In this document: positions 9,499-31,683 of the stretch, piece after piece | Numbering within the stretch: the stretch's first letter is position 1 | How the letters are laid out: each line of letters opens with the position of its first letter | IMG/VR virus record: IMGVR_UViG_3300007280_000011 | Span: 1-31,683 of that record | From: a virus | Reading direction: 5' to 3' (one strand) | DNA length: 31,683 nt | Notes under the pieces: model-generated | What the model was told of the DNA's origin: nothing | Database searches by the model: none | What the model saw: the letters and a program-made list of their open reading frames with translations, nothing else | Position numbers and translations under genes: made by a program

Positions 9499-9616
9499 AC
9501 AATGGCAGCCATGTTGGGACATAGCACTACTAATAATAGGTGTGGGCTTTTGGTGGGCTATGTGCTCACTCTATGAGAGATTCACAACTAAACCAAAGGG
9601 AGCAACCAGGAAGTGA
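9491..9616 (+). CDS. 41-residue single-pass membrane protein
   Basis: A tiny gene encoding MFEQWQPCWDIALLIIGVGF, WWAMCSLYERF and TTKPKGATRK. Residues about 10-27 (IALLIIGVGFWWAMCSLY) form one membrane-spanning helix, followed by a basic tail (positive-inside). The start overlaps the preceding gene by 8 bases and the stop overlaps the methyltransferase GTG as GTGA, so it sits inside a coupled chain. Function unknown. Options are an early membrane modulator or a superinfection factor. A holin role is less likely, as it is expressed with early genes and a 3-TM holin exists elsewhere. Confidence 0.55.
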   Translation: MFEQWQPCWDIALLIIGVGFWWAMCSLYERFTTKPKGATRK

Positions 9617-10485
9617 AAGTTTTAGACTTATTTGCAGGCATTGGCGGCTTTACTCTAGGTTTAGAAAAAGCAGGATTTGAAACAGTAGCTTTCTGTGAAA
9701 TTGATCCGTTCGCACAGAAGGTTTTAAACAAGAATTGGCCAGGAGTACCAATTTATGACGACGTTAAAGAAATCACAGCAGAACAACTCAGAACAGATGG
9801 AATTGAAGTTGACATCATTACAGGAGGATTTCCCTGTCAAGACATCAGTGTCGCAGGGAGACAAGAAGGACTTAAAGGAGAACGATCTGGACTCTGGTCT
9901 GAATGCGCTCGTTTGCTTAGGGACATTCGCCCAAGATATGCCATATTTGAAAACGTCAGAAACTTACTCAACGGCAATAATGGAGACTGGTTCCGACAGG
10001 TACTCTGGGAAATTTCCGCCATCGGGTATGATGTTGAGTGGCACTGTATACCAGCTTCCGCGCTTGGTGCCCACCACAAAAGAGACAGGGTCTGGATTGT
10101 GGCCTACTGCAACAGCGATGACAGGCGGCGAAGGAGTAGCGCCCAGTCACATCAACGGGAAACACGGTTGGAATCTAGGTGCAGCAGTACAGGACAGCAT
10201 ATCAGAGAAACCGCACAGAATGTGGCCGACTCCTCAAGCATCCGACAATCGAGACAGGGGCAACTTAAGCAATCCTTGTTTGCAAAGGAGAGTAAAGAAG
10301 GGAAAACAACTTATGCTCTCACAAGTGGTGCACCCGACATCTGGAAAACTGAACCCAACGTGGGTCGAGTGGCTAATGGGGTTCCCGACAGGACACACCG
10401 ACTTAAATGCTTAGGTAATGCAGTAGTGCCTCCTATTCCTGAAATGATAGGCAGAGCAATTATGCAGCGGGAGATTAACCTATGA
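9613..10485 (+). CDS. dcm-like: C5 cytosine DNA methyltransferase
   Basis: A 290-residue Dcm-type enzyme transferring methyl from S-adenosylmethionine to cytosine C5. Motif I DLFAGIGG (5-12), the acidic CEID (28-31), motif IV GGFPCQDIS with catalytic C75, motif VI FENV (112-115), motif VIII HHKRDRVWIV (154-163), and motifs IX/X RLKCLGNAVVP (263-273) are all present. The section between VIII and IX (about 166-250) is the short target-recognition region and looks odd, rich in Arg, Ser and Gln. It starts with GTG, coupled to the upstream gene. It probably protects phage DNA from host restriction. A second long ORF occupies another frame of the same DNA. Confidence 0.92.
   Translation: MKVLDLFAGIGGFTLGLEKAGFETVAFCEIDPFAQKVLNKNWPGVPIYDDVKEITAEQLRTDGIEVDIITGGFPCQDISVAGRQEGLKGERSGLWSECARLLRDIRPRYAIFENVRNLLNGNNGDWFRQVLWEISAIGYDVEWHCIPASALGAHHKRDRVWIVAYCNSDDRRRRSSAQSHQRETRLESRCSSTGQHIRETAQNVADSSSIRQSRQGQLKQSLFAKESKEGKTTYALTSGAPDIWKTEPNVGRVANGVPDRTHRLKCLGNAVVPPIPEMIGRAIMQREINL
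9755..10414 (+). CDS. Overprinted ORF inside the methyltransferase gene (+1 frame), 219 residues
   Basis: An open frame of 219 codons lies wholly within the methyltransferase gene. Its ATG is preceded by AGGAG (9741-9745) at 9 bases. The product contains EDFPVKTSVSQ (24-34), KENDLDSGLN, FPPSGMMLSGTVYQLP (87-102), GSGLWPTATA, RMWPTPQASDN (155-165) and the end KLNPTWVEWLMGFPTGHTDL. These resemble a phage protein pattern I remember as standalone proteins or as C-terminal parts of larger methyltransferases (SGMMrnGxVY, WPTPxASD, LNPxWVEWLMGFPxGWTDL). The same bases encode GGFPCQDIS and VGRVANGVPDR in the methyltransferase frame. It may be a real overlapping gene, or a conserved by-product of that frame. 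Function unknown. Confidence 0.4.
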   Translation: MTTLKKSQQNNSEQMELKLTSLQEDFPVKTSVSQGDKKDLKENDLDSGLNALVCLGTFAQDMPYLKTSETYSTAIMETGSDRYSGKFPPSGMMLSGTVYQLPRLVPTTKETGSGLWPTATAMTGGEGVAPSHINGKHGWNLGAAVQDSISEKPHRMWPTPQASDNRDRGNLSNPCLQRRVKKGKQLMLSQVVHPTSGKLNPTWVEWLMGFPTGHTDLNA

Positions 10486-17317: not shown

Positions 17318-17600
17318 CCAAGCTAGTCCTGAAGAATGGGACACATTAACAGCACTAAATAACTTGTCCATAAGGAAACCTAAGAAGGTAGACCCTGTAG
17401 AACAACCTGACCACTACAACAAAGGTGCTGTCGAAGCAATAGAAGCAATCAAGGCGTCCATGCCTGAACACGAGTTTAAAGGCTACCTAAAAGGTAACGC
17501 ATTGAAGTACCTCTGGCGCTATGACTACAAAGGAAAACCCATCGAAGACTTACGCAAGTGTCGGTGGTACATTGAACGACTGATAAAGGAAATAAATTAA
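17307..17600 (+). CDS. DUF3310 protein (putative nucleotide kinase-like)
   Basis: A 97-residue protein containing the DUF3310 core: VEQPDHYNKGAVEAIEAIKA, EFKGYLKGNALKYLWRYDYK and KPIEDLRKCRWYIERLIKEI. This family is common in phages and is sometimes labelled a nucleotide kinase, but no reaction is established. The ATG at 17307 follows an 11-base overlap with the upstream gene; the frame is open further upstream only as overlap. Its last base overlaps the NrdJ ATG. Its place directly before a ribonucleotide reductase fits a role in nucleotide metabolism. Confidence 0.8.
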   Translation: MSIDQASPEEWDTLTALNNLSIRKPKKVDPVEQPDHYNKGAVEAIEAIKASMPEHEFKGYLKGNALKYLWRYDYKGKPIEDLRKCRWYIERLIKEIN

Positions 17601-19471
17601 TGGACGCATACCAACAGTACATACACAAAAGCAGGTACGCAAGGTACTTGCCTGAAGAGCAACGGCGTGAAACCTGGGAAGAAACTATCGACCGTTACCT
17701 CAACTTCTGGATAGAAAAAGGTAAGCTTACTCTTGAGGACGCTAATGGTATCTTTGCAGACATCCATGACATGAACGTAATGCCCTCCATGCGAGCCTTA
17801 ATGACTGCAGGAGAGGCACTAGACCGTGACAATGTAGCTGGTTTTAACTGCTCTTACTTGCCTATAGATCATCCTAAAGCGTTTGACGAAATGATGTACG
17901 TACTTATGTGTGGCACTGGCGTAGGCTTCAGTGTTGAACGCCAGTACGTATCTAAACTACCTGAAGTTGCGGAGGACTTTCATGACACAGATACCGTTAT
18001 ACACGTCGCTGACAGCAAAATTGGATGGGCTAAAGCCTACAGAGAACTTGTTAGCTTGCTCTATTCGGGTCAGCTTCCAAAGTGGGACGTATCTGGAGTA
18101 CGACCTGCAGGGTCAACCCTTAAAACCTTTGGAGGTAGAGCGTCTGGTGCGGATCCTCTTGTTGACCTCTTTAAATTTACCACCGAAATCTTTAGGGAGG
18201 CTGCTGGACGTAAGCTTTCCTCTATCGAGTGTCACGATATCTGCTGTAAGATTGCACAAATCGTTGTCGTCGGAGGGGTCAGGAGAAGTGCTCTTATCAG
18301 TCTTAGTAACCTCACTGACGATAGACTACGACGGTGTAAGTCAGGACAATGGTGGCAAGACAATCCACAACGAGGACTAGCCAACAATAGCGCCTGTTAT
18401 ACAGAGAAGCCGGACTTTGAGGCATTTTTAAATGAGTGGACAAGCTTATACGAGTCACGATCAGGAGAGCGAGGAATGTTCTCTAGGATTGCAAGTCAAA
18501 AGCAAGCTGCAAAAAATGAGCGACGAGATGCTACCTATGACTTTGGAACTAATCCATGCTCAGAAATCATCCTCCGACCCAATCAATTCTGTAATTTGTC
18601 AGAGGTTGTTGTCAGGGCGTCCGATAGTTTGTCAGACCTTAAACGAAAAGTACGTACTGCGACTATCCTTGGAACTTTACAGGCTACCTTAACTAACTTC
18701 CGCTACTTACGTAAGGTGTGGCAGAAGAACACTGAAGAAGAAGCACTTCTTGGTGTCAGCTTGACAGGCATCATGGATCACCCAACGCTATCAGGAAGGA
18801 GGGACAAAGGTGTTCTCAAGACTTGGCTTACTGAACTCAAGGAAGAAGCGATTAACACTAATAAGGAATGGGCTACTAAGCTTGGTATTAATATCAGCAC
18901 TGCCATTACTGCTGTTAAACCTTCCGGTACTGTTAGCCAGCTGGTTGATTCTGCATCTGGTATCCATCCTAGATACTCAGATCAATACATTAGACGAGTT
19001 AGAGCGGACGCAAGAGACCCACTCTGTCAAGTCTTAGAAGCGGCAGGAGTGCCTGTAGAGGAAGACGTAATGTCGCCTAGTACTAAGGTATTCTCCTTCC
19101 CAATACAATCTCCTGAAGGCGCTGTAGTGGCCTCTGAGATGGGAGCAATGGAACAACTTGAGCTATGGGAAATTTACCAGGATTTCTGGTGTGAGCATAA
19201 GCCGTCTATGACCTGTTACTACCGTGACGAAGAGTTCTTGGAAGTGGGTCAGTGGTTGTACAACAAGTTCGACAAGATAAGTGGAGTTAGTTTCCTCCCT
19301 TATTCCGAACATACGTATCAACAAGCGCCTTATGAACCCATAGACTTAGAGACCTATGAGAAGCTGAAGAAAGAGTTTCCTGAGACCATCGACTGGACAA
19401 TCTCAGAAAACTCAGACATGACGGAAGGGTCTCAACAGTTAGCCTGCACTGGTAATAACTGTGAGTTGTAA
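17600..19471 (+). CDS. nrdJ: Ribonucleotide reductase, class II monomeric (B12-dependent)
   Basis: A 623-residue enzyme reducing ribonucleoside triphosphates to deoxy forms with adenosylcobalamin. Motifs: GFNCSYLPID with C84 as redox partner, LMCGTGVGFSVE (102-113), GGVRRSALISL (225-235), the finger-loop TNPCSEIILRPNQFCNLSE (N318, C320, E322, C331), AVKPSGTVSQL and a C-terminal swinging-arm pair C616/C621 (ACTGNNCEL). It resembles the Lactobacillus RTPR type (739 residues) but is shorter, as in marine podoviruses. It supplies dNTPs for phage replication and depends on host B12. It is the last early gene, followed by a terminator. Confidence 0.93.
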   Translation: MDAYQQYIHKSRYARYLPEEQRRETWEETIDRYLNFWIEKGKLTLEDANGIFADIHDMNVMPSMRALMTAGEALDRDNVAGFNCSYLPIDHPKAFDEMMYVLMCGTGVGFSVERQYVSKLPEVAEDFHDTDTVIHVADSKIGWAKAYRELVSLLYSGQLPKWDVSGVRPAGSTLKTFGGRASGADPLVDLFKFTTEIFREAAGRKLSSIECHDICCKIAQIVVVGGVRRSALISLSNLTDDRLRRCKSGQWWQDNPQRGLANNSACYTEKPDFEAFLNEWTSLYESRSGERGMFSRIASQKQAAKNERRDATYDFGTNPCSEIILRPNQFCNLSEVVVRASDSLSDLKRKVRTATILGTLQATLTNFRYLRKVWQKNTEEEALLGVSLTGIMDHPTLSGRRDKGVLKTWLTELKEEAINTNKEWATKLGINISTAITAVKPSGTVSQLVDSASGIHPRYSDQYIRRVRADARDPLCQVLEAAGVPVEEDVMSPSTKVFSFPIQSPEGAVVASEMGAMEQLELWEIYQDFWCEHKPSMTCYYRDEEFLEVGQWLYNKFDKISGVSFLPYSEHTYQQAPYEPIDLETYEKLKKEFPETIDWTISENSDMTEGSQQLACTGNNCEL

Positions 19472-19500: not shown

Positions 19501-21813
19501 TTACTCCGTTAACATTCCTGTTCTAGCACCAGTAACACCGCCTGCTCTTTGTAGTAATTCAGCAGTTCTGCCTGTTCTGTCAGACTGAAGCATACTTTGT
19601 ATATTTTGTTGTGTAGGGGCCTGACCAGCGATAACTCGTTGTGCTTTAGGAGTTGCTAAAGTTCTTCCTAAACCAAAAGCACCTGCTGCAGTTACGGCAG
19701 CGCCTGATAAGCCTCCAGAAATTCCTCCCGCCGCTAAAATACCAGTAGCCGCTAGTGTATGGAACCATGAAGGATTTTGAGGAGACCGCAACTGCTTAAG
19801 CTGTTCTAGTTCTTTGTTAAGTATTTTTAACTCAGCTTCTATTTGGCCTTTCCTGTTAATGTCACTACTAATTTCAAGAGCTAGTTCAGGTTTCCTAGAA
19901 ACCGCTGCTTTCTTAGCACTAAGGTTGTTATCTATCTTGTTCAAACTAGAAGTAAGTTTATCTTTATGAGATCGCATTTCTTTTTCAATTAAACGGGCTT
20001 TTGTTTTTCCTAAATTAGCAGCACGCTTAGCAATGCTTTTCTCTGCTTGACCTAAGTTAGCCTCTAAGATTCTTGCTGTTTTATTAAGTGGACCAGTGCC
20101 ATATCTAGAATCCCAACGATTGTTTTTACTTACCTCTTTAATCCAGTCAGATTCATTAAAGACACCTCGTTTCTTAGGATCTACTTGAGTACCTTCAATA
20201 GATTCACGTAGAACAACAGTTGTTTTCCACTTACCGGCTTCTTTGTCTAATTTTATTCTGTCAGCACCTGTTAGCTGCGCCTTCATAATTTTGTCAATTT
20301 CGTCCTGAAGCGTGTATAACGCTCTTTTATTTTGAGGGTCAGCAGCGTTATTCGCCAAGGTACCAACTTTAGAACGTAAAGACGAAACTAGAGAACCGTC
20401 AACACGCCCACTCTTGTCTCTAAAAAAGTTGGTAGTTTCGATTGCATTTTCAAATACCTTCATGACTGAAGGAACGTCTACTGTGTTTACAACAAAGTAA
20501 GGGTCTTTTACTAAAGCCTGCTCTAGATTTTTTTGCAGTTCTCCTGCCTTAAACCTAAATTTTTTGTTGTTAATCATGGAGTAACCTTTGACTTTCCAAA
20601 GGTCATCAAGTGCTTTAGCTCTTTGTCCTATTTCAGGTTTTTCCATTACTCTTTGGATGTCTCTTTGTGTAGCGCCTTCTGGAAAAGAACGAAGAAAAAC
20701 TTCATTTCTAAAATCAAACCGACGAGCGTCTAATAGTTTTCTAGTCTCAGTAGTTGCTCTGTTTACTATTTCTTCGGCTTTACCTGATTTCAAAGCTTTA
20801 AACTTTTCTTGTAAAGGAACAACAATGTCAGCAGTCTCTCTTTTTTTAATCTCTGTTAAAGCTTTGCTTTCTTCTTTTAAAGCATTTACAGCGTCTTTCA
20901 TCGCTTCGTTGCTTTGCTGTTGCTTTGTTTTAATACCTTCGTCAAGCTTTTTAGAAAAAACCTTCTGAGACTCTAGATAGTCTTCAGCTTTATTAATAAT
21001 CTTTTCTTCTTGTTCTTTAATTACACCCTTTGCTCCAAAAGAAGGAGCAACAACGTCCCTATAAAAAGTATGAATAAGTCCTTCAGAACCTTTAGGATTA
21101 CTAGCGGCTAAAGTCAAAGGCACAAAGTCACCGTCAATATCTACTAAATCTCCTTCAACTCTTCTTCGACTAACTACATCAAAACCTTTTCCAACTCCTG
21201 CTGTTACGCCTTTTACGATACCAAAACCGGCAGCGCCTCCTGCTGCACCTGTAGCCGCACCTTCAAGCCTTTGGCCTTGTTCAGCAGCACCAGCACCGTA
21301 CACAGCACCTTCACCAGAGGCCAAACCAAGCCTTCCTAAAGTAGTGCCTGCTTTCAAAGCCATAGCAGGAGAAACAACACCGCCTGCAATATCAGCAGCT
21401 AGTGCAGCACCTTGTTGTCTTTCTGCAAACTCTCGTTGCTTAGCGTCGTACTCTTCCTTAAGCTGTAGATACTGTTCTTTAGTGGTTGTTTCTAAATCAT
21501 AGTAAGGGTAAGTAATATTGGCGTTAATCGCAGCAGAGATCCAAAGACCCATTTCGTCTCCCCAGCCTAAAGCCGCACTAGAAAAAAATCTCTGTGATGC
21601 TGCTAAAGAGTCTTCAGAAGTCCAGGCAGTTTCTTCTACCTCAAGATCTTCCCTTGACTTTGACGAAGCTTCCATTTCCTCGTCCATCTGTTTACGTAAG
21701 TCTGCCAAATCTTGAGGACTAAAACCAGAAGGAGCAGGAGTAGTGGTTGTTGTAGGAGCAACAGTAGTTCTCGCTGCCATCCCAGCTAATCTTTGAAGGT
21801 CATCGTTTTGCAT
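19501..21813 (-). CDS. Large ejection-type internal virion protein, 770 residues
   Basis: The last gene of the late unit. The N-terminus has TTVAPTTTTTPAPS and an acidic section. Residues about 137-217 are Ala/Gly-rich and hydrophobic (LAADIAGGVVSPAMALKAGT, GAATGAAGGAAGFGIVKGV). The middle (250-670) is long, charged and helical. A second hydrophobic Gly/Ala segment lies near the end (AATGILAAGGISGGLSGAAV). P22-like ejection proteins have this mix and are injected with the DNA to form a channel through the envelope. Position after the gp10-like and two other such proteins supports this. No lytic transglycosylase motif seen. Confidence 0.6.
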   Translation of the reverse strand: MQNDDLQRLAGMAARTTVAPTTTTTPAPSGFSPQDLADLRKQMDEEMEASSKSREDLEVEETAWTSEDSLAASQRFFSSAALGWGDEMGLWISAAINANITYPYYDLETTTKEQYLQLKEEYDAKQREFAERQQGAALAADIAGGVVSPAMALKAGTTLGRLGLASGEGAVYGAGAAEQGQRLEGAATGAAGGAAGFGIVKGVTAGVGKGFDVVSRRRVEGDLVDIDGDFVPLTLAASNPKGSEGLIHTFYRDVVAPSFGAKGVIKEQEEKIINKAEDYLESQKVFSKKLDEGIKTKQQQSNEAMKDAVNALKEESKALTEIKKRETADIVVPLQEKFKALKSGKAEEIVNRATTETRKLLDARRFDFRNEVFLRSFPEGATQRDIQRVMEKPEIGQRAKALDDLWKVKGYSMINNKKFRFKAGELQKNLEQALVKDPYFVVNTVDVPSVMKVFENAIETTNFFRDKSGRVDGSLVSSLRSKVGTLANNAADPQNKRALYTLQDEIDKIMKAQLTGADRIKLDKEAGKWKTTVVLRESIEGTQVDPKKRGVFNESDWIKEVSKNNRWDSRYGTGPLNKTARILEANLGQAEKSIAKRAANLGKTKARLIEKEMRSHKDKLTSSLNKIDNNLSAKKAAVSRKPELALEISSDINRKGQIEAELKILNKELEQLKQLRSPQNPSWFHTLAATGILAAGGISGGLSGAAVTAAGAFGLGRTLATPKAQRVIAGQAPTQQNIQSMLQSDRTGRTAELLQRAGGVTGARTGMLTE

Positions 21814-23159
21814 TAGTAAAATCCTTTAAGGTTTTTTCCTTTGGAAAAGTCTTCCCATTGATTTTCAGCTATTGCTAAATCATTCATAATCCCTACAATT
21901 TCAGGAAAAGTTTGCTCTAGTGCTGCTAAAGCCGCTTGTCTTTGTTGTGGGTCTTGTAAAGCATTTGCTTGAGCAATTTTTTGATTAAAGTTTTGCATTG
22001 TTGCTGGAGCCGTAGCTTCTAATTCTTTCAAGTCTCTTGTTAAAGCTTCTTTTTTAACCCAAAAATCATAACCTCTTGCGTTAGGGTCTCCTGTTTCTTG
22101 GATAAAATCACTTTTCCTATTAAAATACTCAGCTTCTGCTCTAGCAATTTTAGCCATACCACGTAAGTATGATTCTGCATCTTCGTTTGCAAGATTATTA
22201 GGATCAATACTAGCGTCTAAAGCAAGCTGTACGTCTCTATCCGAAGCAGGTCCAGCAGGCAAAAGTTCTAAAGCACCTGACATACGTATTTCATTAATTC
22301 TTCTTCTGTGTATTGTAGCTTGTCCTGCAACACCAAAAGTTTCTTCAATGTTAGATAGTGTACGACCAACAGCACCTCTTTCTAAAGCACTCCTTTTTAC
22401 TGCTTCATCAGCCAATTCGTCATATGTTGAAGCATCTATCGTTGCTTGCCTTCCTTTATCTCTAGATTCACCAAGTAAAGCAGAACCCCATTTAGTGTCT
22501 AAACCTAAATCAGCTTCGTTAGCTTCTCCGTCTTCGTCGTCTAATTTAGTTGGGCCTATTGGTGTTTTAACAATATTTCCTTCGTCGTTTCTAGAAATAG
22601 CGTAGTCTATATTCATTTCCTTTTCGGGATCATATAAAGACCTAATTGTGGGTTTAGCTGGAGTTCCTTTTTTAACAGTAGGTCTAATAGCTTCATAAAT
22701 ATCTCTAGCTTCTTGAGGACTTATTTTGTAAAAAGAAGCTTCACGTAAAAATGACCTTCTGTCTTTAGGGTTTTCATCTATATTAAAATCAGAAATTGAA
22801 GCCAAAGCAGTAAGAGCCTCAACACCTTCTTCTTTTTTACCTTTTAGTCCTTCTTCTTCAGTTCTCTTTTTAGTAGCTCTACCACGCTCTTGTGCAGCCG
22901 TTATCTGCTCAGGTGTAGCACCTAAACCAACAAGAGAACCAATAGCGTCTTGATAGTCACGACCTTCTGCTGCTGCCTGTTCTAAACCAAATAAGCCACC
23001 AGTAACGCCACGCTGAGTTTGCTCACGCTCCTCTTGCATCCGCTGTGACGCTCTAGTCATAGAAGGACCAGCTGCCGCTGCTCTACCTACTTGATACAGG
23101 TTCTGACCAAATGCAGGCTGCATAAGACCCTGTAGTAGTCCTTGTGAAAACCTAGCCAT
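21813..23159 (-). CDS. Internal virion / ejection-type protein, 448 residues
   Basis: A mainly helical protein: MARFSQGLLQGLMQPAFGQN and LYQVGRAAAAGPSMTRASQR at the N-terminus, repeated amphipathic helices (EQAAAEGRDYQDAIGSLVGL), then a charged middle (TKKRTEEEGLKGKKEEGVEA). No enzyme motif is visible. It lies between two other Ala/Gln-rich proteins and overlaps the next start as TAATG. The N-terminal LLQGLMQPAFGQ style is seen in ejection proteins of P22-like marine phages, from memory. Assigned by pattern and position only. Confidence 0.55.
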   Translation of the reverse strand: MARFSQGLLQGLMQPAFGQNLYQVGRAAAAGPSMTRASQRMQEEREQTQRGVTGGLFGLEQAAAEGRDYQDAIGSLVGLGATPEQITAAQERGRATKKRTEEEGLKGKKEEGVEALTALASISDFNIDENPKDRRSFLREASFYKISPQEARDIYEAIRPTVKKGTPAKPTIRSLYDPEKEMNIDYAISRNDEGNIVKTPIGPTKLDDEDGEANEADLGLDTKWGSALLGESRDKGRQATIDASTYDELADEAVKRSALERGAVGRTLSNIEETFGVAGQATIHRRRINEIRMSGALELLPAGPASDRDVQLALDASIDPNNLANEDAESYLRGMAKIARAEAEYFNRKSDFIQETGDPNARGYDFWVKKEALTRDLKELEATAPATMQNFNQKIAQANALQDPQQRQAALAALEQTFPEIVGIMNDLAIAENQWEDFSKGKNLKGFY

Positions 23160-23160
23160 C

Positions 23161-24015
23161 TTAGCCTCCTATGCCTAGTAGATCAAACAATGGGTTAACA
23201 ATTTTAGTGATACCGTCACCCATACCGACTTGCTGTGGTGTCAACAGTCCTGACAGGAGACCAGTACCTAGTTGACCATAGAGGTTAGCTTGTCCAAGAC
23301 CTGAACCAAGCAGTGCCTCAAGTCCACCCATTTGTGCTTCACCAAACAAACCAGCACCTTGTAGCTGACCACGTTGCGCCATTTGTGCAGCTGGTAGACC
23401 TGCTTGCAGGACGTTCAATGCTTGCGCTTGAGGTGTGTAACTAGCGCCCATGAACTGACCACCCAATTGTGCCTGTTGCATCTGCTCAGCTTGCGCCTGT
23501 TGCATTGCACTTAGCATCGCCTGGTTACGTGCTTCTTCCTGAGCTTTAGCCAAAGCAAACTGCTCAGGTGCACCTCCGAATTGCGCTGTACGCAAACCTA
23601 AGCGTCCTTGTGCCGCTAAACGCTCTTCAGTAGCAAGACGCTGTCGTTGCTCTTCAGGACGCTGTGCTTCCCTTATGCGCTCAAAGACAGCCTGCTCACG
23701 TGCCTGCGTAGGTTGCATAGCCTGTTGATAAAACTGACCTGCACCTCCGAACATCTGTTGTTGGAACGCCTGCTCTTCTGGAGACATGCCTACAGTAAGA
23801 CCACCTTGAGGAGTAGTAGTTAATGCTCCTCCTGTTCCTGTCGTTACTGTGAAAGGCTGGAAACGTGTTTGCTCTACACCAGTAGTAGCAATGTCGCCTG
23901 CTTCCCTTCTTGCTTGTTCACCTATTTCACCAAGACGTTGATAAGCTTTACCTGTAAGTAAACCACCAGCGCCTATGGCACCTAAACCCAATAGTTGTCT
24001 TAATGTGTCGCTCAT
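23161..24015 (-). CDS. Ala/Gln-rich internal virion protein, 284 residues
   Basis: Begins MSDTLRQLLGLGAIGAGGLL, a hydrophobic Gly-rich segment. It continues with Gln/Ala/Met-rich helices (EARNQAMLSAMQQAQAEQMQ) and ends in Gly/Leu-rich text (LLGSGLGQANLYGQLGTGLL, FDLLGIGG). This composition fits the smallest ejection protein of P22-type phages (gp7-like). No catalytic motif is present. It overlaps the gp10-like gene by 4 bases (ATGA), so it is coupled to a tail gene. Function inferred from position and composition. Confidence 0.55.
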   Translation of the reverse strand: MSDTLRQLLGLGAIGAGGLLTGKAYQRLGEIGEQARREAGDIATTGVEQTRFQPFTVTTGTGGALTTTPQGGLTVGMSPEEQAFQQQMFGGAGQFYQQAMQPTQAREQAVFERIREAQRPEEQRQRLATEERLAAQGRLGLRTAQFGGAPEQFALAKAQEEARNQAMLSAMQQAQAEQMQQAQLGGQFMGASYTPQAQALNVLQAGLPAAQMAQRGQLQGAGLFGEAQMGGLEALLGSGLGQANLYGQLGTGLLSGLLTPQQVGMGDGITKIVNPLFDLLGIGG

Positions 24016-25520
24016 AGTAATTTACCCATTAAAGCCATTACATTGATCTCCTGTAGTGACAGTTGTGAACCGTCAATCTCTGCTTCTAAACCTACAACAA
24101 TACTAGTTCCGTAGCCTGTTGCGTTTAAACTTCTTTGGTTGGTCAAAGCGCCACCTGTGAACTCCACAGTTGTGTACTCGCTTTCGCCGAAGAAACCAGT
24201 GACTTGGTCTCCTACCGTAAACTCTGCTGTTGCGTACGTACCTTTGAAGTCATACGCCCACTTCATAAATACTGTTGCGTTGTTAGCGCCCACTAACGTA
24301 GGCTTAAGCTTCTTAAGAATCTTAACTCTAGAACTATCGCCAAATGTTAAGCTTGGGCTGTAGTACTTAAAGCGATAGCCTAAACCGTTGTCTTGGTAAC
24401 CGGTGTACTCACTAATGCCTTCAGACGTGCCTATGTAAAAGTCACCGTTGTCTAAACGTGTGTAGCAACTAAAGCCGGTAGAAGGCCAACGAGTAACACG
24501 GTAGGAACCATTCTCTGTTGTTCCTCTAACGTCAAAGCAGTAAGTGTTGTCCTGACCTACAAAAGTTAGTAGGTAAAAACCTTCTTCAGGACTATAAGCA
24601 GACCTAAAGAACGTGTTTTCTGTCTGCAAGGCGTTAATAATGTCCTTACTAATGTTTGCTGACAAACTACTAACAGGCATGGACTTTTGTTGTATTGTAC
24701 GTCCAAAGCTCTTTAAACCAGTGTGTGACAGGAACAGTACGTCCGTACCAGTGTACTGAACAGTGTCCCTGTCTACGCAACCGATACCAGCTACAGTGTC
24801 CTGAAGAACCATAGTTGCTGGTGCTTCTGCTCCTTGGTACACAATGATGCTGTGCTTACCAAAGATAATTAGGAAGCCGTTATGTGCAGCCAGTGCAACA
24901 ATCTCGTCGTAACCGTCAGGCCAAACTTTAGACACGTCAATGGAGCCACTAGTACCGCCTGAGAAGTCATGGCCTATCAAAAGGTCAGACCAGTAAACAA
25001 TAGAAGGACTACCACCAACTCCTGTTACCCAGAGACGACCGTAAGCTGACAGTACTTCGTTACCTAGCACAACACCGGCAGCACCAGCTACTGAGTCTAG
25101 ACGTACCACTGACGAACCGTCGTACACTAAAGGTTCGTGAGAAGCTTGAAACAAGTAGGCTTTGTCGTTAAAGTTAACAATCTTCCAGTTGTCTGCTGTC
25201 ACCGTGTAACTGCCAGGCGTAGCGTCAGTGAGCGTAGTAGTACCTGTGAATATCTTGTTATTGCCTACAGACAGCACTACGTTGCTACCGGTACTTCTGT
25301 CGAACTCTTTTACAGCCCTGATCGTACCAGAGCCTAATGCTGTTTTATTAGTTGTAATGACACTATGACCCTTACGTGCCGCAATACGACCACGTTTGTC
25401 AATCACAGCGTTGTCTGCTATTTCAGCAAACGACGGGTCCTGCGCCAACGGTGAATCTTCGGTGTTAATACCTTTGAACGCTGGCGCTACAAGATTAATA
25501 CTCTTTAGTTCTTGAGCCAT
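24012..25520 (-). CDS. Tail hub/stabilisation protein (P22 gp10-like)
   Basis: A 502-residue beta-rich protein starting MAQELKSINLVAPAFKGINT and EDSPLAQDPSFAEIADNAVI, then RGRIAARKGHSVITTN. The N-terminal GINTEDSP...A..ADNAVIDKRGRIAARKG pattern is typical of the P22 gp10 / tail-nozzle family (Phage_stabilise). Later blade-like segments (KAYLFQASHEPLVYDGSSVV, RLWVTGVGGSPSIVYWSD, LFLSHTGLKSFGRTIQQK) suggest a beta-propeller-like fold. It closes the tail and carries fibres or the needle. It is one base downstream of the adaptor gene. Confidence 0.75.
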   Translation of the reverse strand: MAQELKSINLVAPAFKGINTEDSPLAQDPSFAEIADNAVIDKRGRIAARKGHSVITTNKTALGSGTIRAVKEFDRSTGSNVVLSVGNNKIFTGTTTLTDATPGSYTVTADNWKIVNFNDKAYLFQASHEPLVYDGSSVVRLDSVAGAAGVVLGNEVLSAYGRLWVTGVGGSPSIVYWSDLLIGHDFSGGTSGSIDVSKVWPDGYDEIVALAAHNGFLIIFGKHSIIVYQGAEAPATMVLQDTVAGIGCVDRDTVQYTGTDVLFLSHTGLKSFGRTIQQKSMPVSSLSANISKDIINALQTENTFFRSAYSPEEGFYLLTFVGQDNTYCFDVRGTTENGSYRVTRWPSTGFSCYTRLDNGDFYIGTSEGISEYTGYQDNGLGYRFKYYSPSLTFGDSSRVKILKKLKPTLVGANNATVFMKWAYDFKGTYATAEFTVGDQVTGFFGESEYTTVEFTGGALTNQRSLNATGYGTSIVVGLEAEIDGSQLSLQEINVMALMGKLL

Positions 25521-25521
25521 A

Positions 25522-26169
25522 TCAGATAGTCCTAAAGTACATCTCTTCTGGATGCTTAGCTGCGTCTATTGCGATAGCGTCAGACAAATATCTATCAGCA
25601 ATACCAAAGTACTCAGCAGTAGAAGTTCCTCCTGTTTCTCCACGTTCACGAGCCAACAAAGCAACAGCTAGGTGTACTACAGGTTGCGAAGGTATTAGCA
25701 ACGTGTCAGTATTAGCACTCAAGTCACCTTGTCGTTTAATCACGTCAAACCGCAAGCTGTAGACACCGTCAGGAGTCGGGCCTACGAGCACTTGCGTGTC
25801 ACCACTAGCGTCAAGGCCGTTGTACGTGTAGTACATAGGTGCGCCTGTAGCAGCATTATTAATGTACAGTTGCTCGTTAAACCAGTCCTTACTTTGGTAC
25901 TCCATAAAGACATTACTAGTGTCGTTAAGAACACACATAACCTTTACGTTGTCACCGCAGTCCGTCAAGGAATAAGTATTGTCGTCGGCTGTAGTAGAAA
26001 CAGTAATAGTGCTTCTTAAGGCTGACCAGTCGTTAGACTCCTCTACTAACTTCTTAGCGTCGTTAATAAAGTCACCAACCATCTTGTTGTAAGTAGTGCT
26101 AGTAACCGACGTAGTTTCTTCTTCACGCAGCCTACGTAGCACGTTATTCATAAGGTTCAAGTATGTCAT
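25522..26169 (-). CDS. Head-tail adaptor protein (gp4/gp11-like)
   Basis: A 215-residue protein beginning MTYLNLMNNVLRRLREEETT, then SVTSTTYNKMVGDFINDAKK and DWSALRSTITVST. An N-terminal helix pair followed by a beta domain (YYTYNGLDASGDTQVLVGP) is the layout of the adaptor ring under the portal in short-tailed phages. The pattern L..vlr.lre...tsv.ss.Y.k.v.dfIN.AKr.ve....W..LR is common in marine phage adaptors. Overlap ATGA with the giant gene upstream, one base before the gp10-like gene. Assignment is fairly good. Confidence 0.7.
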   Translation of the reverse strand: MTYLNLMNNVLRRLREEETTSVTSTTYNKMVGDFINDAKKLVEESNDWSALRSTITVSTTADDNTYSLTDCGDNVKVMCVLNDTSNVFMEYQSKDWFNEQLYINNAATGAPMYYTYNGLDASGDTQVLVGPTPDGVYSLRFDVIKRQGDLSANTDTLLIPSQPVVHLAVALLARERGETGGTSTAEYFGIADRYLSDAIAIDAAKHPEEMYFRTI

Positions 26170-29100
26170 CCGATATATTCCTTAAACAAACTGCTTGTTA
26201 TTCCGGTTGGTCCTAATGTGTCCTGTAAAGACGCTACGTAGTCAACTTGAGGTGCTTGACCTATTTCTTCTAGTGTAGGCAACTCGTAATTAATGCCTGA
26301 CATGAAAGGAGTAAAGTCAGTCTTCTTAGGTGCTGCCGCAGCTGCCATCATGCCTATTCCACTACCAACACCAGGTCCTGAACCATCACCAGTACCAGTC
26401 CCTGTTCCAGCACCTGAACCACCTCCAGTTCCAGTACCGTCTCCTACACCAGTTCCTTCACCAGTTCCGTCACCGTCGCCGTCTCCAGTTCCAGTAGTGT
26501 CTTTGGCCTGCTCTTCAGCGTCCTTCCTTACTTCTTCAGAAGACTGTAGATCCTTCTCTAGCTGTTCGTCAGCAGCGTCCTTGTTGGCCTGTTCAGCATC
26601 CTTAGCTTCGGTTTCAGCACTAGTGTCTTTCTGAGCATTTTCGTCCTTAGTCGCTTCCTCAGCCGCCTGTTGTTCCTTAGCGGCCTCTTCTGCTGCCTGT
26701 TGTTCCTTAGCTTGCTCTTCGGCAGCTTGTTCCTTAACAGCTTCTTCAGCAGCTACTTCTTCTTTACGAGTTTGCTCAGCTTCTTCCTTACGTACCTGCT
26801 CCGCTTCTTCTTTTTCTTGGGTCTCTGCAGCAGCTTCCTTTTCTGATCTTTCTGCAGCAGCCTCTTCCTTTTCTTGAGTTTCAGCGTCAGCTTCCTTTTT
26901 AGCCTCTTCAGCGTCCTTGGCTTCGTCCTCAGCTTCTTTCTCTGCTGTTTCAGCCTCAGCGTCCTTCTGAGCTTCTTCGGCAGCTATTTCTTCTTTCTCT
27001 TTAGTTTCTGCAGCAGCGTCCTTAGCTGTTTCTTCGGCGTCTTTATCTTCCTGTTCTGCAGCTGTTTCTTCCTTAGTTTTATTTTCGGCGTCCTTGTCTG
27101 CAGTCTCAGCAGCAGCCTCTTCTTTACGTTGCTCTTCTGCAGCAGCCTCTTTATCTTCCTGTTCTGCAGCAACATCTTTATCTTCCTGTTCTGCAGCAAC
27201 ATCTTTATCTTCTTTTTCAGCATCTTTGTCTTGTTGTTCTGCAGCAGTATCCTTGGCTTCTTTCTCAGCATCTTTATCAGACTGTTCAGCAGCTACTTCT
27301 TTATCTTCCTTTTCTGCATCTTTTTCTTCTTGTTCTGCAATAGCGTCTTTATCTTCTTTTTCTGCGTCCTTATCAGCTTGCTCTGCAGCAGCGTCTTTTT
27401 GTTCCTTTTCGGCTTCTTCCTTTTGAACTTCTTCAGCAGCTTCTTTAGCTATTTCTTCAGCTTCTTCTTTTCTACCCTGTTCTGCTTCTTCCTTCTGCTC
27501 TGTTTCAGCTTGAGCATCTTTTTCTGCAGTCTCAGCAGCTACCTCTTCTTTCTCTTCGGTTTCAGCCTGAGCGTCCTTCTCAGCAGTCTCTGCGTCCTTA
27601 GATTCAGTTTCAGCATCGGCTTCCTTCTTAGCTTCCTCAGCTGCTACCTCTTCTTTCTCTTGGGTTTCTGCAGCAGCTTCCTTAGCTGTTTCTTCTGCAT
27701 CCTTATCAGACTGTTCAGCAGCTACCTCTTCTTTTTCCTTAGTCTCAGCATCTTTGTCAGCCTGCTCTGCCGCTTGCTCTTCCTTAGTTTTGTTTTCAGC
27801 TTCTTTATCCGCTTGTTCTGCAGCAGCATCTTCCTTTGCTTTATTCTCAGCATCCTTATCTTGTTGCTCAGCTTGAGTTTCTTTTGTTTCTTTTTCCGCG
27901 TCTTTTTCCTGTTGTTCAGCTACGTCCTTTTCCTGAGTCTCAGCCTCAGCGTCCTTCTTAGCTTCTTCAGCAGCTACCTCTTCCTTTTCCTGAGTTTCTG
28001 CATCAGCGTCTTTCTTAGCTTGTTCTGCAGCTTGTTCCTCTTTCTCTTGAGTTTCTGCCTCAGCATCTTTCTTAGTTTGTTCAGCGGCTACTTCTTCTTT
28101 TTCTTTAGTTTCAGCTTCGGCGTCTTTTTCTACTTGTTCCGCAGCAGCGTCCTTTTGCTCTTGTTCTGCTTGCTGTTCCTTTTGAGTTTCCTCAGCGTCC
28201 TTACCTTCAGCTTCTGCTAACTCTTTTTTATCTTCTTCAGCCTGACGGTCCTTCTCTGCTTTTTCTGCAGCAGCCTCTTCCTTTTCTTGAGTCTCTGCTT
28301 TAGTGTCCTTTTTAAGTTGTTCTGCAGCGGCCTGTTCTTTTTCCTGAGTCTCTGCAGCAGCGTCCTTCTCTGCCTTTTCAGCAGCAGCTTGTTCTTTTTC
28401 TTGGGTCTCTGCAGCAGCTTCTTTTTCAGCAGTCTCAGCCGCAGCTGCTTCCTTCTGTTGTGTTTCTGCTGCAGCTTCCTTATCTGCTTTTTCAGCAGTC
28501 TCTTTGTCAGCACGTTCAGCAGCGTCTTTAGAAGCTTCTGCAGCAGCGTCCTTAGATGCACGTTCGGCTGCAGCATCTGCATCCTTCTGTCTCTCAGCTG
28601 CAGCAGCGTCCTTCTGTCTTTCTGCGGCAGCATCTTGTTCTTTCTGCTGTCTTTCTGCAGCAGCTTCAGCCTGATCCTTTTGTATTTCTTCAGCCGTGTC
28701 GTCAGCAGAAGGAACAGTACTAGCTAATGGGTCGTCTTCATCAGTAGGAGTAGTAGAGGAGTCGCCTCCGCCACCACCACCGCCACCTATTTCAGGCTCA
28801 GGTTCAGGCTCAGGTGTTTCTTCAGTAGGGTCGTACTCAGGGTCTATAAAAATTTCTGTTGGTTCGTTAGGGTCTCGTACACGAATAATGTTTCCAGATT
28901 CGTCTACGTCATTAATCTGACCGTACTCTTCGCTTCTATCGTAGTTAAAGTCTATTACTACTTGAGAACCGTTAGTATTAACTGTATATCCTGACTGAGC
29001 TAGTGCTTCAACTAATTCTTCTTGAGTTGATACACCAAACAAACCCATTAAAACTTCTTGGTCTGAATCGGAGAGACCAAAGAAACCGTTAGCGTCTACA

Positions 29101-30941
29101 CCTGTTCCAATGCTTGTCATATGATCAACAATGGAACCAATGTCTTGTTGATCTACTGCACTATCAATAGCAGATTGAAAATCAGTGTCTGAAAACTGTC
29201 TAGGATCATAAGGAACCTGACCTTCAGTTAAACCTGTTAGTTGATCTACAACAGTAGGGTCACTTACTACGTTACCGTCTGCATCGAACCACTGACCTTC
29301 TTCTTGGTAGTAAGCAAGGTTGCCTTCAGAGTCATAAAGACCGTCCTGACCTAACTGAATTTCTCCTGTAGCAATAATAGACGCGCCGTCTTCAGCAAAG
29401 CCGTCGTAGTAATCAACAGTGCCGTCTTCGTTTACTGCAGCAGTGCCTCCTAAATCATAGACATTACCGTCAGCGTCAACATAAGTTCCGTCAGAAGTAT
29501 ACCTAAGTCCTTCTATATCTTGACCTAGAATTCTATTACCGTTTTCGTCGGTATAGTAGTAGTATGAACCAGGGTCTATGTAGCCTTCACCTGCTCTGTA
29601 CTCTAGTTCTTCTTCATCTATTTCTTCTACAGCACCTTCTACAGCATCACCAATTTGACTTACAATTTCTTCAAACTGTTCTGTGTACTCAGAGATGTCA
29701 GTATCAAATAAACCTTCTGCTTGTGACAAGAAGTCTTCAATAGCACTAATGTCTGGTACGTAGCCTCTAAAGAATTCCTCAAGCTGGTCTAACTCAGTTT
29801 GTGCTAAGTCTTCTAGGTTTTCTAAGTACTCACCAAACTGGTCCGTAAGACCTGCTCTAAGCATTGCTTCAATAAGCTGTTGTGGGTCTAATTCACCGCT
29901 TGTCGCTAACTGAGTAGCTGAGTTAATAACACCTGCTTGGACAACAGCGTCAACAAACTCATTACCTGTTTCTAACGCTTGGAGTGCTTCCTGTGCAATG
30001 TCGGTGTCTAACAAACCACCAGTAACAGCAGCTTGTATAACACTTTCAAGACTTATGTCTAAGTCACCGCCTGTTAAGACACTGGTAGCTGCCTGTGAGA
30101 TTACTGAGTTAACAGCAGCAGAAAAAGCCGCAGCAGAAGCACCACTTAAACCTACTGTAGAAGAAAGAGCAGATCCAACTCCAGCACCACCTAAAGCTAA
30201 ACCTACAGCAACTTGAAAGCCTGCTTTAAATATGTCTCCGGCACCAGAACTTTGGTCCTCTACTTTAACGTAGGCTGATCCATTCCATCTAAAGCGGTCT
30301 CCCGAAGTAGAATAAAGGTCAGTAACAACACCGTACTTACGTAGTAATGCTTGGTTGGCTTCGGAGTTAAGCCAGTTGTTGTAAGCACCTTGCTGTGTGC
30401 TAGTTTGTTGTCTACGTAAGTTTTCTAAGTTTTGACCAGGGTCGCTAGGATCAATAGTTAAGTCAGCGTCACCCTCAAGAATCATCTCTTGATCTTCGGT
30501 AAAGCCGGTGTCGGCGTCAGCCCACTCTCCAACAGTTAGCTCACCAGACTGAAGTAACTCTTCACGTTCGGTCATGTAAGCAAGGTAGTTATCAAACGTA
30601 CCAAATACTTCAGGTAGTCTGTTTACTTCGTCGCTTTCAAAGTACTCACGTAGTTCGTCTACAGTAACCTGTCGAACTTCTCCTTCCTGACCATAAAGAT
30701 AGTTCTGTTGTGCTCCTCCTCTTTCCCTACCTTCTATAAACGTAAAGGTCATTTCTTCTGGCTCTGGAGTAGGAGCAGGTTCTGAAGTAGGCGGTGGTCT
30801 AACTATAGGGGCTTGCTTTGTGGGACCACCTTTGACCCCACCAGTTGGCATTCTTGGTTGGCCGGTAGTTTCATCAAAGGTAGGCGTACCTCCTGAGTAC
30901 ACGCTCCCACCTGTAAACATTCCTCGAGAACTTTTAGCCAT
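26166..30941 (-). CDS. Giant 1591-residue protein with a charged repeat rod
   Basis: Not recognised. Residues 1-75 are Pro/Gly-rich and disordered. Residues 75-700 contain a mixed domain (FIEGRERGGAQQNYLYGQEG), a hydrophobic Ala/Gly section (VAVGLALGGAGVGSALSSTV, about 240-330), acidic helices and ENGNRILG / DADGNVYDLGG-like short turns (470-580). A Pro-Glu and Gly8 linker follows near 705-725. About 740 residues of repeats of Glu, Lys, Ala, Asp and Gln come next. Then a Gly/Asp/Thr linker (about 1480-1525), MMAAAAAPKKTDF and a short conserved-looking end. The order holin, this gene, adaptor, gp10-like suggests a virion part such as a fibre or internal protein. Its frame is intact. Confidence 0.75.
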   Translation of the reverse strand: MAKSSRGMFTGGSVYSGGTPTFDETTGQPRMPTGGVKGGPTKQAPIVRPPPTSEPAPTPEPEEMTFTFIEGRERGGAQQNYLYGQEGEVRQVTVDELREYFESDEVNRLPEVFGTFDNYLAYMTEREELLQSGELTVGEWADADTGFTEDQEMILEGDADLTIDPSDPGQNLENLRRQQTSTQQGAYNNWLNSEANQALLRKYGVVTDLYSTSGDRFRWNGSAYVKVEDQSSGAGDIFKAGFQVAVGLALGGAGVGSALSSTVGLSGASAAAFSAAVNSVISQAATSVLTGGDLDISLESVIQAAVTGGLLDTDIAQEALQALETGNEFVDAVVQAGVINSATQLATSGELDPQQLIEAMLRAGLTDQFGEYLENLEDLAQTELDQLEEFFRGYVPDISAIEDFLSQAEGLFDTDISEYTEQFEEIVSQIGDAVEGAVEEIDEEELEYRAGEGYIDPGSYYYYTDENGNRILGQDIEGLRYTSDGTYVDADGNVYDLGGTAAVNEDGTVDYYDGFAEDGASIIATGEIQLGQDGLYDSEGNLAYYQEEGQWFDADGNVVSDPTVVDQLTGLTEGQVPYDPRQFSDTDFQSAIDSAVDQQDIGSIVDHMTSIGTGVDANGFFGLSDSDQEVLMGLFGVSTQEELVEALAQSGYTVNTNGSQVVIDFNYDRSEEYGQINDVDESGNIIRVRDPNEPTEIFIDPEYDPTEETPEPEPEPEIGGGGGGGGDSSTTPTDEDDPLASTVPSADDTAEEIQKDQAEAAAERQQKEQDAAAERQKDAAAAERQKDADAAAERASKDAAAEASKDAAERADKETAEKADKEAAAETQQKEAAAAETAEKEAAAETQEKEQAAAEKAEKDAAAETQEKEQAAAEQLKKDTKAETQEKEEAAAEKAEKDRQAEEDKKELAEAEGKDAEETQKEQQAEQEQKDAAAEQVEKDAEAETKEKEEVAAEQTKKDAEAETQEKEEQAAEQAKKDADAETQEKEEVAAEEAKKDAEAETQEKDVAEQQEKDAEKETKETQAEQQDKDAENKAKEDAAAEQADKEAENKTKEEQAAEQADKDAETKEKEEVAAEQSDKDAEETAKEAAAETQEKEEVAAEEAKKEADAETESKDAETAEKDAQAETEEKEEVAAETAEKDAQAETEQKEEAEQGRKEEAEEIAKEAAEEVQKEEAEKEQKDAAAEQADKDAEKEDKDAIAEQEEKDAEKEDKEVAAEQSDKDAEKEAKDTAAEQQDKDAEKEDKDVAAEQEDKDVAAEQEDKEAAAEEQRKEEAAAETADKDAENKTKEETAAEQEDKDAEETAKDAAAETKEKEEIAAEEAQKDAEAETAEKEAEDEAKDAEEAKKEADAETQEKEEAAAERSEKEAAAETQEKEEAEQVRKEEAEQTRKEEVAAEEAVKEQAAEEQAKEQQAAEEAAKEQQAAEEATKDENAQKDTSAETEAKDAEQANKDAADEQLEKDLQSSEEVRKDAEEQAKDTTGTGDGDGDGTGEGTGVGDGTGTGGGSGAGTGTGTGDGSGPGVGSGIGMMAAAAAPKKTDFTPFMSGINYELPTLEEIGQAPQVDYVASLQDTLGPTGITSSLFKEYIG
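26480..28690 (-). repeat. Coding repeats of the charged rod
   Basis: About 2.2 kb of imperfect in-frame repeats. The translated units vary between 9, 16 and 19 residues, for example VAAEQEDKD (9), VAAEQSDKDAEKEAKD (16) and AEAETQEKEEQAAEQAKKD (19). Two perfect 27-base tandem copies lie at 27148-27174 and 27175-27201, with a partial third. Hydrophobic residues other than Ala are nearly absent, so it is more like a single alpha-helix or disordered polyampholyte than a classic coiled coil. Confidence 0.8.
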
Positions 30942-31340
30942 TTACTTTTCCCTTGATACACCCTTGGTTTTTTCATAAGAGCGCATAGCACCAAGACCAA
31001 GCATACCCATTAGTACAGGCATCATAGTCTCTAGGTCAATGAGCGGTATAGTAACTTCAATAGCTAACAAAGCTAAAACAAAGTTGGTAAACGGTATGAC
31101 CATAAAGTTGCCCATCATACCTAGTACACAACACCAGCCAACAGCAGGTCTCCAACCAGAAACAAACAAAGACTTGTGTGCTGCTTCTACCTTGTTAACC
31201 TCTAGTTGTGACTTAGCAAGCTCCTGAGCGTGTCTCTGAGCCATTGTAGCGACTTCATGAGCTAACCTAGCCTTCTGGTCCTTGTCCTGTACAAACTTGT
31301 CCAGAAGCCCTGTAACAGGCCCTATGAGCGACTCAATCAT
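30942..31340 (-). CDS. Holin, 3-TM GTA type
   Basis: A 132-residue membrane protein of the GTA_holin_3TM kind. The N-terminal cytoplasmic helix reads LLDKFVQDKDQKARLAHEVA and TMAQRHAQELAKSQLEVNKV. The motif EAAHKSLFVSGWRPAVGW precedes membrane segments at about 63-83, 84-101 and 107-121. The end is basic (SYEKTKGVSREK). Holins form lesions in the inner membrane that release the endolysin (here the M15 peptidase at 7022-7372). It overlaps the upstream gene by 4 bases (ATGA). Confidence 0.8.
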   Translation of the reverse strand: MIESLIGPVTGLLDKFVQDKDQKARLAHEVATMAQRHAQELAKSQLEVNKVEAAHKSLFVSGWRPAVGWCCVLGMMGNFMVIPFTNFVLALLAIEVTIPLIDLETMMPVLMGMLGLGAMRSYEKTKGVSREK

Positions 31341-31534
31341 CTAGCAAACTCCAAGATAGCAATAGCCATAGTCACAATAATAGCAATAGAAGCAAAGCCA
31401 CCTGTCATCATCTTCTCTAGTTTGTCAAAGCGTTGATTGTGTGCATCCAGTTGCATCTGAATCATTTCATAACGAATACTACACTCACGCTCATGAGCTT
31501 CTAACCGACTTAATGCTTGCTCTAGGTCTGACAT
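31337..31534 (-). CDS. Coiled-coil protein with C-terminal membrane anchor
   Basis: A 65-residue protein: MSDLEQALSRLEAHERECSI and RYEMIQMQLDAHNQRFDKLE form a charged heptad helix, followed by KMMTGGFASIAIIVTMAIAI and LEFAR, one membrane span (about 44-62). Such N-in/C-anchor mini-proteins next to holins are frequent in phages and are thought to assist lysis (haemolysin XhlA-like). No enzymatic motif. The stop is coupled to the holin start by ATGA. Role inferred from topology and neighbour. Confidence 0.65.
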   Translation of the reverse strand: MSDLEQALSRLEAHERECSIRYEMIQMQLDAHNQRFDKLEKMMTGGFASIAIIVTMAIAILEFAR

Positions 31535-31536
31535 GA

Positions 31537-31683
31537 CTATTCCTTACCACTCTGATGATCCACAGTTATCTGTGCATTCAACTTACCTATCTCTACTTCT
31601 ATCTTATTTAGCTGCCTACGTAACTCGTGTATCTCTACGTTGCGTTCTTCCAGAGCCATGATCTTAGCGTTCTGTATAAGATC
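31537..31683 (-). CDS. Small coiled-coil protein, probably cut by the right edge
   Basis: An open frame enters from the right edge and ends with TAG at 31537-31539, two bases before the next ATG (31534). Readable residues include MALEERNVEIHELRRQLNKI and EVEIGKLNAQITVDHQSGKE, a charged coiled coil. The frame is also open before the Met at 31659, so the true start may be that ATG (40 residues, weak ribosome site) or outside the window. Position in the lysis gene group suggests an accessory lysis or virion role. Not recognised. Confidence 0.5.
   Translation of the reverse strand, partial: DLIQNAKIMALEERNVEIHELRRQLNKIEVEIGKLNAQITVDHQSGKE

Follow-up and report, generated by a model that had tools for sequence, protein, structure and literature searches.

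TolA domain II is an Ala/Lys/Glu helix that spans the bacterial periplasm. Single alpha-helices (SAHs) usually have 40 to ~200 residues and a persistence length of ~15 nm, and some designed E/K helices that are rich in Ala form dimers (PMC5347031). In phages, ejection proteins are known for mosaicism in size and domains (PMC8954989), and the adaptor of SU10 carries long tail fibres, the fibre gp12 being numbered next to the adaptor gp11 (PMC9509320). Our analysis of the viral contig IMGVR_UViG_3300007280_000011 from IMG/VR (31,683 bp, all of which is the window here) concerns a gene on its minus strand that encodes a protein of 1591 residues, hereafter the giant protein. It is a new protein family, although the roles that are plausible for it belong to virion parts of familiar kinds. 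Judged from the sequences compared below, the giant protein is probably a member of a hitherto undescribed family of virion proteins, acidic spacers that have exchangeable stalks, are docked at both ends and probably serve genome delivery.

The open reading frame (ORF) occupies exactly 26166-30941, starts with ATG downstream of a Shine-Dalgarno-like AAGGGA, and has no internal stop; its stop codon and the start of the adaptor gene share an ATGA overlap. The giant protein takes up ~1/8 of the genome of a small, short-tailed phage of marine type. The first-pass annotation, made from the DNA alone, had described an intact gene of nearly 5 kb and, within it, a rod of about 740 residues, rich in Glu, Lys, Ala, Asp and Gln, that made up about 46 percent of the length between Gly-rich linkers. 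Both descriptions are borne out, the rod being 736 residues long and 46% of the protein. The parts of the gene are these:

26166..30941, minus strand: giant gene, 1591 residues; an ORF with homologues in the same slot at >100 IMG/VR loci.
30912..30923, minus strand: N-terminal GMFT motif, residues 7-10, of the GM[LF] type enriched at N ends.
30237..30755, minus strand: N-terminal core domain (N core), residues 63-235 (NYLAYMTERE ... WNGSAYVK), common to the L003-L062 families with any spacer type.
29622..30236, minus strand: Ala/Gly-rich, mildly hydrophobic region, residues 236-440, predicted helical by DSSP of a low-confidence model, with weak internal virion protein and tape-measure profile matches in some members.
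29202..29621, minus strand: acidic, strand-rich repeat region, residues 441-580, from the sequence and AlphaFold2 strands.
28782..29201, minus strand: swappable domain, residues 581-720, 48% identical to relative L005, with adjoining segments at 92-98%.
28707..28781, minus strand: Gly-rich linker, residues 721-745, from the sequence.
26499..28706, minus strand: charged, predicted helical rod, residues 746-1481, with a quasi-repeat of about 9.5 residues (9+10=19), from composition, autocorrelation, substitution ratios, AlphaFold2 helices and i,i+4 pairing.
26355..26498, minus strand: Gly/Asp/Thr-rich linker, residues 1482-1529, from the sequence.
26169..26354, minus strand: C-terminal segment, residues 1530-1591, beginning GMM, a proposed dock found at the C end alongside several different spacer types.

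The rod contains 207 Glu, 194 Ala, 107 Lys, 70 Asp and 69 Gln (28%, 26%, 15%, 10% and 9%, respectively), with 23 residues of Ile, Leu, Val, Met, Phe, Trp or Tyr, 2 Gly and 0 Pro. Its net charge is -158, and its autocorrelation shows a quasi-repeat of 9 and 10 residues, 19 together. Acid(i)-base(i+4) pairs number 89, compared to 44.8 +- 4.9 in shuffled sequences, whereas the reverse, base-to-acid orientation occurs 44 times against 45 in shuffles, so only the helix-stabilising orientation is doubled. No amphipathic or hydrophobic stripe was found in the rod (local helical periodicity of Ala plus hydrophobic residues 0.417, versus 0.415 +- 0.072 shuffled), and with 23 hydrophobics in 736 residues a coiled-coil rod was rejected. 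In an AlphaFold2 model of the 501 C-terminal residues, one predicted helix spans 141 residues and another 185, at a per-residue confidence (pLDDT) of about 82-92 along most of each, and a low-confidence stretch of 66 residues separates them. In combining a long uninterrupted helix, an excess of acid(i)-base(i+4) pairs and no coiled-coil hydrophobic stripe, the rod matches the description of an SAH, and the helix and coiled-coil check that had been proposed for it came out in favour of that structure.

These data fit a charged single alpha-helix with a predicted contour of ~110 nm, flexible rather than stiff, whose monomeric state is a prediction. With a persistence length of ~15 nm, our worm-like-chain estimate of the root-mean-square end-to-end distance is about 53 nm, so the helix would not be a stiff 100-nm rod. 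An earlier figure of about 100 nm for a continuous helix therefore stands as a contour length but not as a span, as the helix would bend.

The ratio of nonsynonymous to synonymous substitution rates (dN/dS) in the rod is 0.05-0.12 between this phage and its relatives; in the N-terminal half it is mostly 0.25-0.43, with 0.08 for the very close pair L010/L012. In more distant pairs, dS in the rod reaches 1.1-1.4, and because 75-86% of residues remain identical with synonymous sites near saturation, the order of residues in the rod matters. The low dN/dS and the excess of i,i+4 pairs together place the rod beyond chance or neutral repeat expansion. Across relatives the rod ranges from 736 to 1153 residues, the longest being in L008. 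In two near-identical relatives, L002 (giant ORF ending at 5713) and L003 (ending at 4063), the rod frame is broken within the repeats, through a sequencing or assembly error or a real frameshift.

The rod is not a fixed part of the gene. Searching IMG/VR with the N-terminal part of the protein gave 61 loci and with the rod 43, while a short member gave at least 79 loci among the matches listed and 164 confirmed; more than 100 loci share the slot. In every examined relative that spans the region, the giant gene lies between a holin-type gene and the adaptor gene, with its stop overlapping the adaptor start, and the window, with a holin on one side and an SU10-type adaptor on the other, agrees with the earlier placement between lysis genes and the head-tail adaptor. 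In place of the rod, loci with the N core carry collagen, proline/alanine (PA), VPEV, TPED-type or coiled repeats, or almost no spacer at all (proteins of 523-602 residues). The collagen repeats score 70.7 bits to PF01391, for which the cut-off is 27.2. Loci L158-L184 keep the rod and the C-terminal segment and have N-terminal halves unrelated to that of the window protein.

Identity to the window protein also changes along its length. L005 is 97-98% identical at residues 63-580 and 48% at 581-720, and L006 is 50-55% identical at residues 1-235 and 93-100% beyond, which shows block swaps with sharp borders. The C-terminal segment is 82-100% identical across most rod relatives. Rod-bearing loci form one clade in the adaptor tree (100/100) and are split in the N-core tree, where one row is a long branch. 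On these alignments, the rod is only one among a number of spacer types that can be exchanged, and the N-terminal half is just as exchangeable. The slot protein varies from 523 to 2042 residues while the adaptor and nozzle are essentially constant, and all members examined are acidic, at -0.07 to -0.24 charges per residue. In one member, L135, residues 837-1005 match the portal family phrog_1289 (E=5e-12), which may be composition or a fused domain.

A short motif recurs at both ends of these proteins. GM[LF] lies within the first 60 residues in 32 of 37 distinct N ends and within the last 15 residues in 14 of 26 distinct C ends, against a background of 21 in 1344 interior 60-residue windows (1.6%). 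The C-terminal ~60 residues can be aligned, loosely, over several spacer types. The putative ejection protein ejC of this phage ends ...GARTGMLTE, and GM[LF]T, followed by one or two further residues, closes ejC in 12 of the 12 relatives of this ejC lineage that have a complete C end. Since GM[LF] ends are common to the giant protein and ejC, a shared docking partner is suggested, and we infer that GM[LF] may be the docking peptide. The tie to ejC is supporting and not decisive because it is restricted to one lineage.

No Pfam or PHROG family describes the giant protein, and no enzymatic domain was found in it. We found no relative of the N part or the C end among 50,697 phage records, no isolate relative of the short member L056 (E<0.01), and no relative of the giant protein in a scan of genome contigs. 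In the AlphaFold2 model of the N part, the N core has a block pLDDT of about 56-92, and beyond residues 63-230 the model is of low quality. No match at E<=0.001 came from fold searches with the N part, and a profile search of the PDB returned weak matches only, for example to designed armadillo repeats and helical bundles (best E=0.02). A Pfam match to TrAA12 falls in a Gly-rich linker below the curated cut-off and was taken as composition. No paper on such a protein turned up in searches of the literature. The first-pass annotation had recognised no standard part of short-tailed phages with this design, and our Pfam, PHROG and fold searches likewise gave no known family. It had also suggested comparing the ends with known fibre and internal-core families, and in Pfam, PHROG, fold and isolate searches they matched none. 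With no entry for the family in Pfam or PHROGs, such genes go unannotated today.

The giant gene heads a block of adaptor, nozzle, ejA, ejB and ejC, and its neighbours are these:

30942..31340, minus strand: holin (GTA_holin_3TM), matching PF11351 (E=8.6e-21) and phrog_3427 (E=2.7e-36).
25522..26169, minus strand: SU10-type head-tail adaptor, overlapping the giant-gene stop codon and matching PF24175 (E=7.8e-16).
24012..25520, minus strand: nozzle/stabilisation-like tail protein, matching phrog_5107, phrog_3287 and phrog_578, with distant matches to HMO-2011-type phages.
23161..24015, minus strand: putative ejection protein A (ejA), 284 residues, named by position, with no family match.
21813..23159, minus strand: putative ejection protein B (ejB), 448 residues, named by position, swapped between close relatives.
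19501..21813, minus strand: putative ejection protein C (ejC), 770 residues, named by position, with a C-terminal GM[LF]T.

Across 19501-23159, ejB and ejC are replaced wholesale among phages with a 100% identical adaptor (e.g. L007/G011, L015).

We tentatively favour, with a probability of roughly 0.4, an internal, ejected role for the giant protein as an extra protein of the ejection (pilot) type. Its layout would run from an N-terminal GM-motif peptide through exchangeable N domains, an exchangeable extended spacer (in this phage the putative 736-residue charged single alpha-helix) and a Gly-rich linker to a C-terminal dock of ~60 residues with GM-type motifs. Both ends would dock through GM[LF] on an oligomeric neck or tail ring or on an ejection-protein assembly. 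The spacer would be a long, thin, non-globular virion element able to pass the portal/nozzle channel, and it would extend across the host envelope in genome delivery. A tail channel is wide enough to admit a single alpha-helix. The fixed slot at the head of the ejection block and the GM[LF] end held in common with ejC also speak for this role. In the N-core members, which have an Ala/Gly-rich, probably helical region, weak matches to the T7-type internal virion protein family phrog_342 (E=0.0017) occur in 4 of 31 and to Tape_meas_lam_C also in 4 of 31, and a match to phrog_2335 (E=6.7e-6) reaches into the low-complexity rod. Ejection proteins are known to be mosaic (PMC8954989), and the variation in size and domains here agrees with that. 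Relatives keep a separate, recognisable tail fibre, which already takes the part of the classic fibre.

Several observations weigh against this role. The presence of the giant protein in the virion, its docking partner, its location inside the head and its ejection are all things that we infer. The names of ejA, ejB and ejC come from position alone, and relatives with unrelated ejC genes lack the GM end there. Profile and fold searches detected no homology to any described ejection-protein family, the internal-protein and tape-measure matches being weak and in low-complexity sequence. The giant gene precedes the adaptor, and three other genes occupy the positions after the nozzle. L158, L160 and similar members lack the N core and its Ala/Gly-rich region. 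Net charges of -51 to -430 across the family would be awkward beside packed DNA, and the collagen-like modules of relatives are typical of external fibres and match PHROG tail-fibre and minor-tail families.

The giant protein may instead be an external appendage, a second, accessory fibre or whisker whose C-terminal segment docks on the adaptor or neck, with the exchangeable N half as the outer, surface-binding end and the rod, collagen or PA modules as its stalk. We consider this possible, if doubtful. Its stalk-type modules include genuine collagen repeats that match phage tail-fibre and minor-tail families, but the ends of the window protein match no fibre family, relatives match only through the collagen repeats, and profile and fold searches found no trimerisation or receptor-binding domain. 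The gene lies directly upstream of the adaptor gene and overlaps it, and the SU10 adaptor carries long tail fibres (PMC9509320); however, a separate tail fibre gene exists (in L015, 1066 residues, phrog_21412 E=2.3e-64), which rules out a tail fibre as the sole identity of the giant protein. Among phages with 97-100% identical adaptors, the C end is conserved and the N half block-swapped, as in host-range parts, whereas the fibres known from podoviruses are anchored through their N end; here, moreover, a GM motif stays at the N end even where all else in the N half has been exchanged. That the giant protein is very acidic and soluble would suit an appendage.

An assembly factor, meaning a tape- or scaffold-like acidic helical protein for head-tail joining or packaging that leaves the particle or stays in trace, is distinctly unlikely. 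The position at head-tail joining genes and the helical, charged, extended sequence would agree with such a role, but a scaffold-like gene (269 residues, charged) already precedes the major capsid protein gene. The coiled member L041 matches the tape-measure family phrog_167 (E=7.2e-9), yet with lengths of 523 to 2042 residues beside an essentially constant adaptor and nozzle, the giant protein cannot measure a fixed virion dimension, and these short-tailed phages have no tube to measure: portal and adaptor are of SU10 type, and no tail-tube gene was recognised. A tape measure was rejected on this variation and on the weakness of the matches in low-complexity sequence. It is very improbable that the protein is an injected or intracellular polyanion, DNA-mimic-like, which titrates host DNA-binding defence proteins and uses its variable modules as charge carriers: all examined members are strongly acidic, the rod alone contributing -158, but charge density differs about threefold between members, collagen, PA and coiled spacers are not DNA mimics, the conserved end motifs and adaptor-coupled slot point to structure, and the gene is not beside early genes. 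Repeat slippage or an assembly artefact, that is, a neutral low-complexity expansion, would account for the quasi-repeats, the broken frames of L002 and L003 and the large differences in rod length (736 to 1153 residues) but is refuted for the family by ordered i,i+4 pairing, by rods intact in many independent contigs and by a dN/dS of 0.05-0.12 with synonymous sites saturated, which rules out neutral slippage for the rod. Of the earlier options of a virion fibre, an internal protein or a packaged spacer, a spacer is well supported, and it may lie inside or outside the capsid.

Relatives supply the wider context. Their gene order runs from the scaffold-like gene through the major head protein (phrog_267, E=2.2e-52), the tail fibre, small genes and a gene of 65 residues to the holin, the giant gene, the SU10-type adaptor, the nozzle-like protein and three large ejection-position genes. 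Near-complete relatives are 35-37 kb, and several of their contigs have 160-190 bp direct terminal repeats. The window lacks the stretch between its two ends, which lie inside the capsid gene region (1-389 and 31534-31683). Judged from L015 and G011, ~5 kb is missing and holds the tail fibre, the major capsid protein and some small genes; by comparison with L015, the tail fibre gene lies past the end of the contig and so outside the window. The portal and nozzle are distantly HMO-2011-like, and the capsid protein has distant similarity to its counterparts in cyanophage A-4L and pelagiphage HTVC011P; no close isolate was found for these three proteins, and the HTVC103P and CRP-738 neighbourhoods have no comparable large gene between capsid and nozzle genes. 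Among the head genes, a GTG-start ORF of 229 residues at 1772-2461 on the minus strand has a YSGGMDSVSLL motif and a PP-loop/QueC-like appearance; it is conserved in L015 and G011 and is a possible nucleotide-modification gene. A C5-cytosine DNA methyltransferase (9613-10485) and a ribonucleotide reductase (17600-19471) are also encoded on this podovirus-type genome of ~36 kb.

If the virion contains the giant protein, these uncultured phages show that part of a virion can consist of two end docks joined by any thin spacer, a single slot accepting helical, collagen or proline-rich rods. The rod, under strong purifying selection, would rank among the longest charged single helices inferred in phage. 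Should the GM end motif be a true docking peptide, it would offer a handle on how extra proteins attach to a short-tailed virion and possibly on cargo attachment. A bolder proposal, on balance unlikely, is a new virion-protein class: a doubly docked linker whose spacer cassette (single alpha-helix of up to ~1150 residues, collagen, proline-rich or coiled) is swapped and tuned to host envelope or surface layers, with GM[LF] as a universal plug common to an ejection protein, giving a modular setting of reach in genome delivery.

Compared with podovirus ejection proteins (T7 gp14/gp15/gp16, P22 gp7/gp20/gp16), the giant protein is encoded in the neighbourhood of the putative ejection genes, varies greatly in size and domains, and in most N-core members has an Ala/Gly-rich, probably helical region, with weak profile similarity in a few. 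It differs in that its gene lies upstream of the adaptor, not downstream of the nozzle, and in its huge acidic spacer and lack of detectable homology. With the long tail fibres of phages and with minor tail proteins of collagen-like type (e.g. SU10 gp12/gp13; phrog_1806), it has in common exchangeable stalk modules, collagen repeats in relatives and a gene beside the adaptor. However, its conserved end is C-terminal, another tail fibre gene is present, no receptor-binding or trimerisation domain was found, and its rod is a predicted charged helix. The rod resembles SAH and charged SAH domains (e.g. that of myosin-6) in being Glu/Lys-rich with few hydrophobics and an E(i)-K(i+4) bias, and in being a predicted uninterrupted helix that joins other domains, but at 736 residues, and up to 1153 in L008, it exceeds the typical 40 to ~200 (PMC5347031), and it is Ala- and Gln-rich, net acidic (-0.21 per residue) and part of a phage protein. 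Like TolA domain II, with which we claim no homology, the rod would be a long Ala/Lys/Glu-rich helical spacer joining terminal domains, here about three times longer, strongly acidic and encoded by a phage gene.

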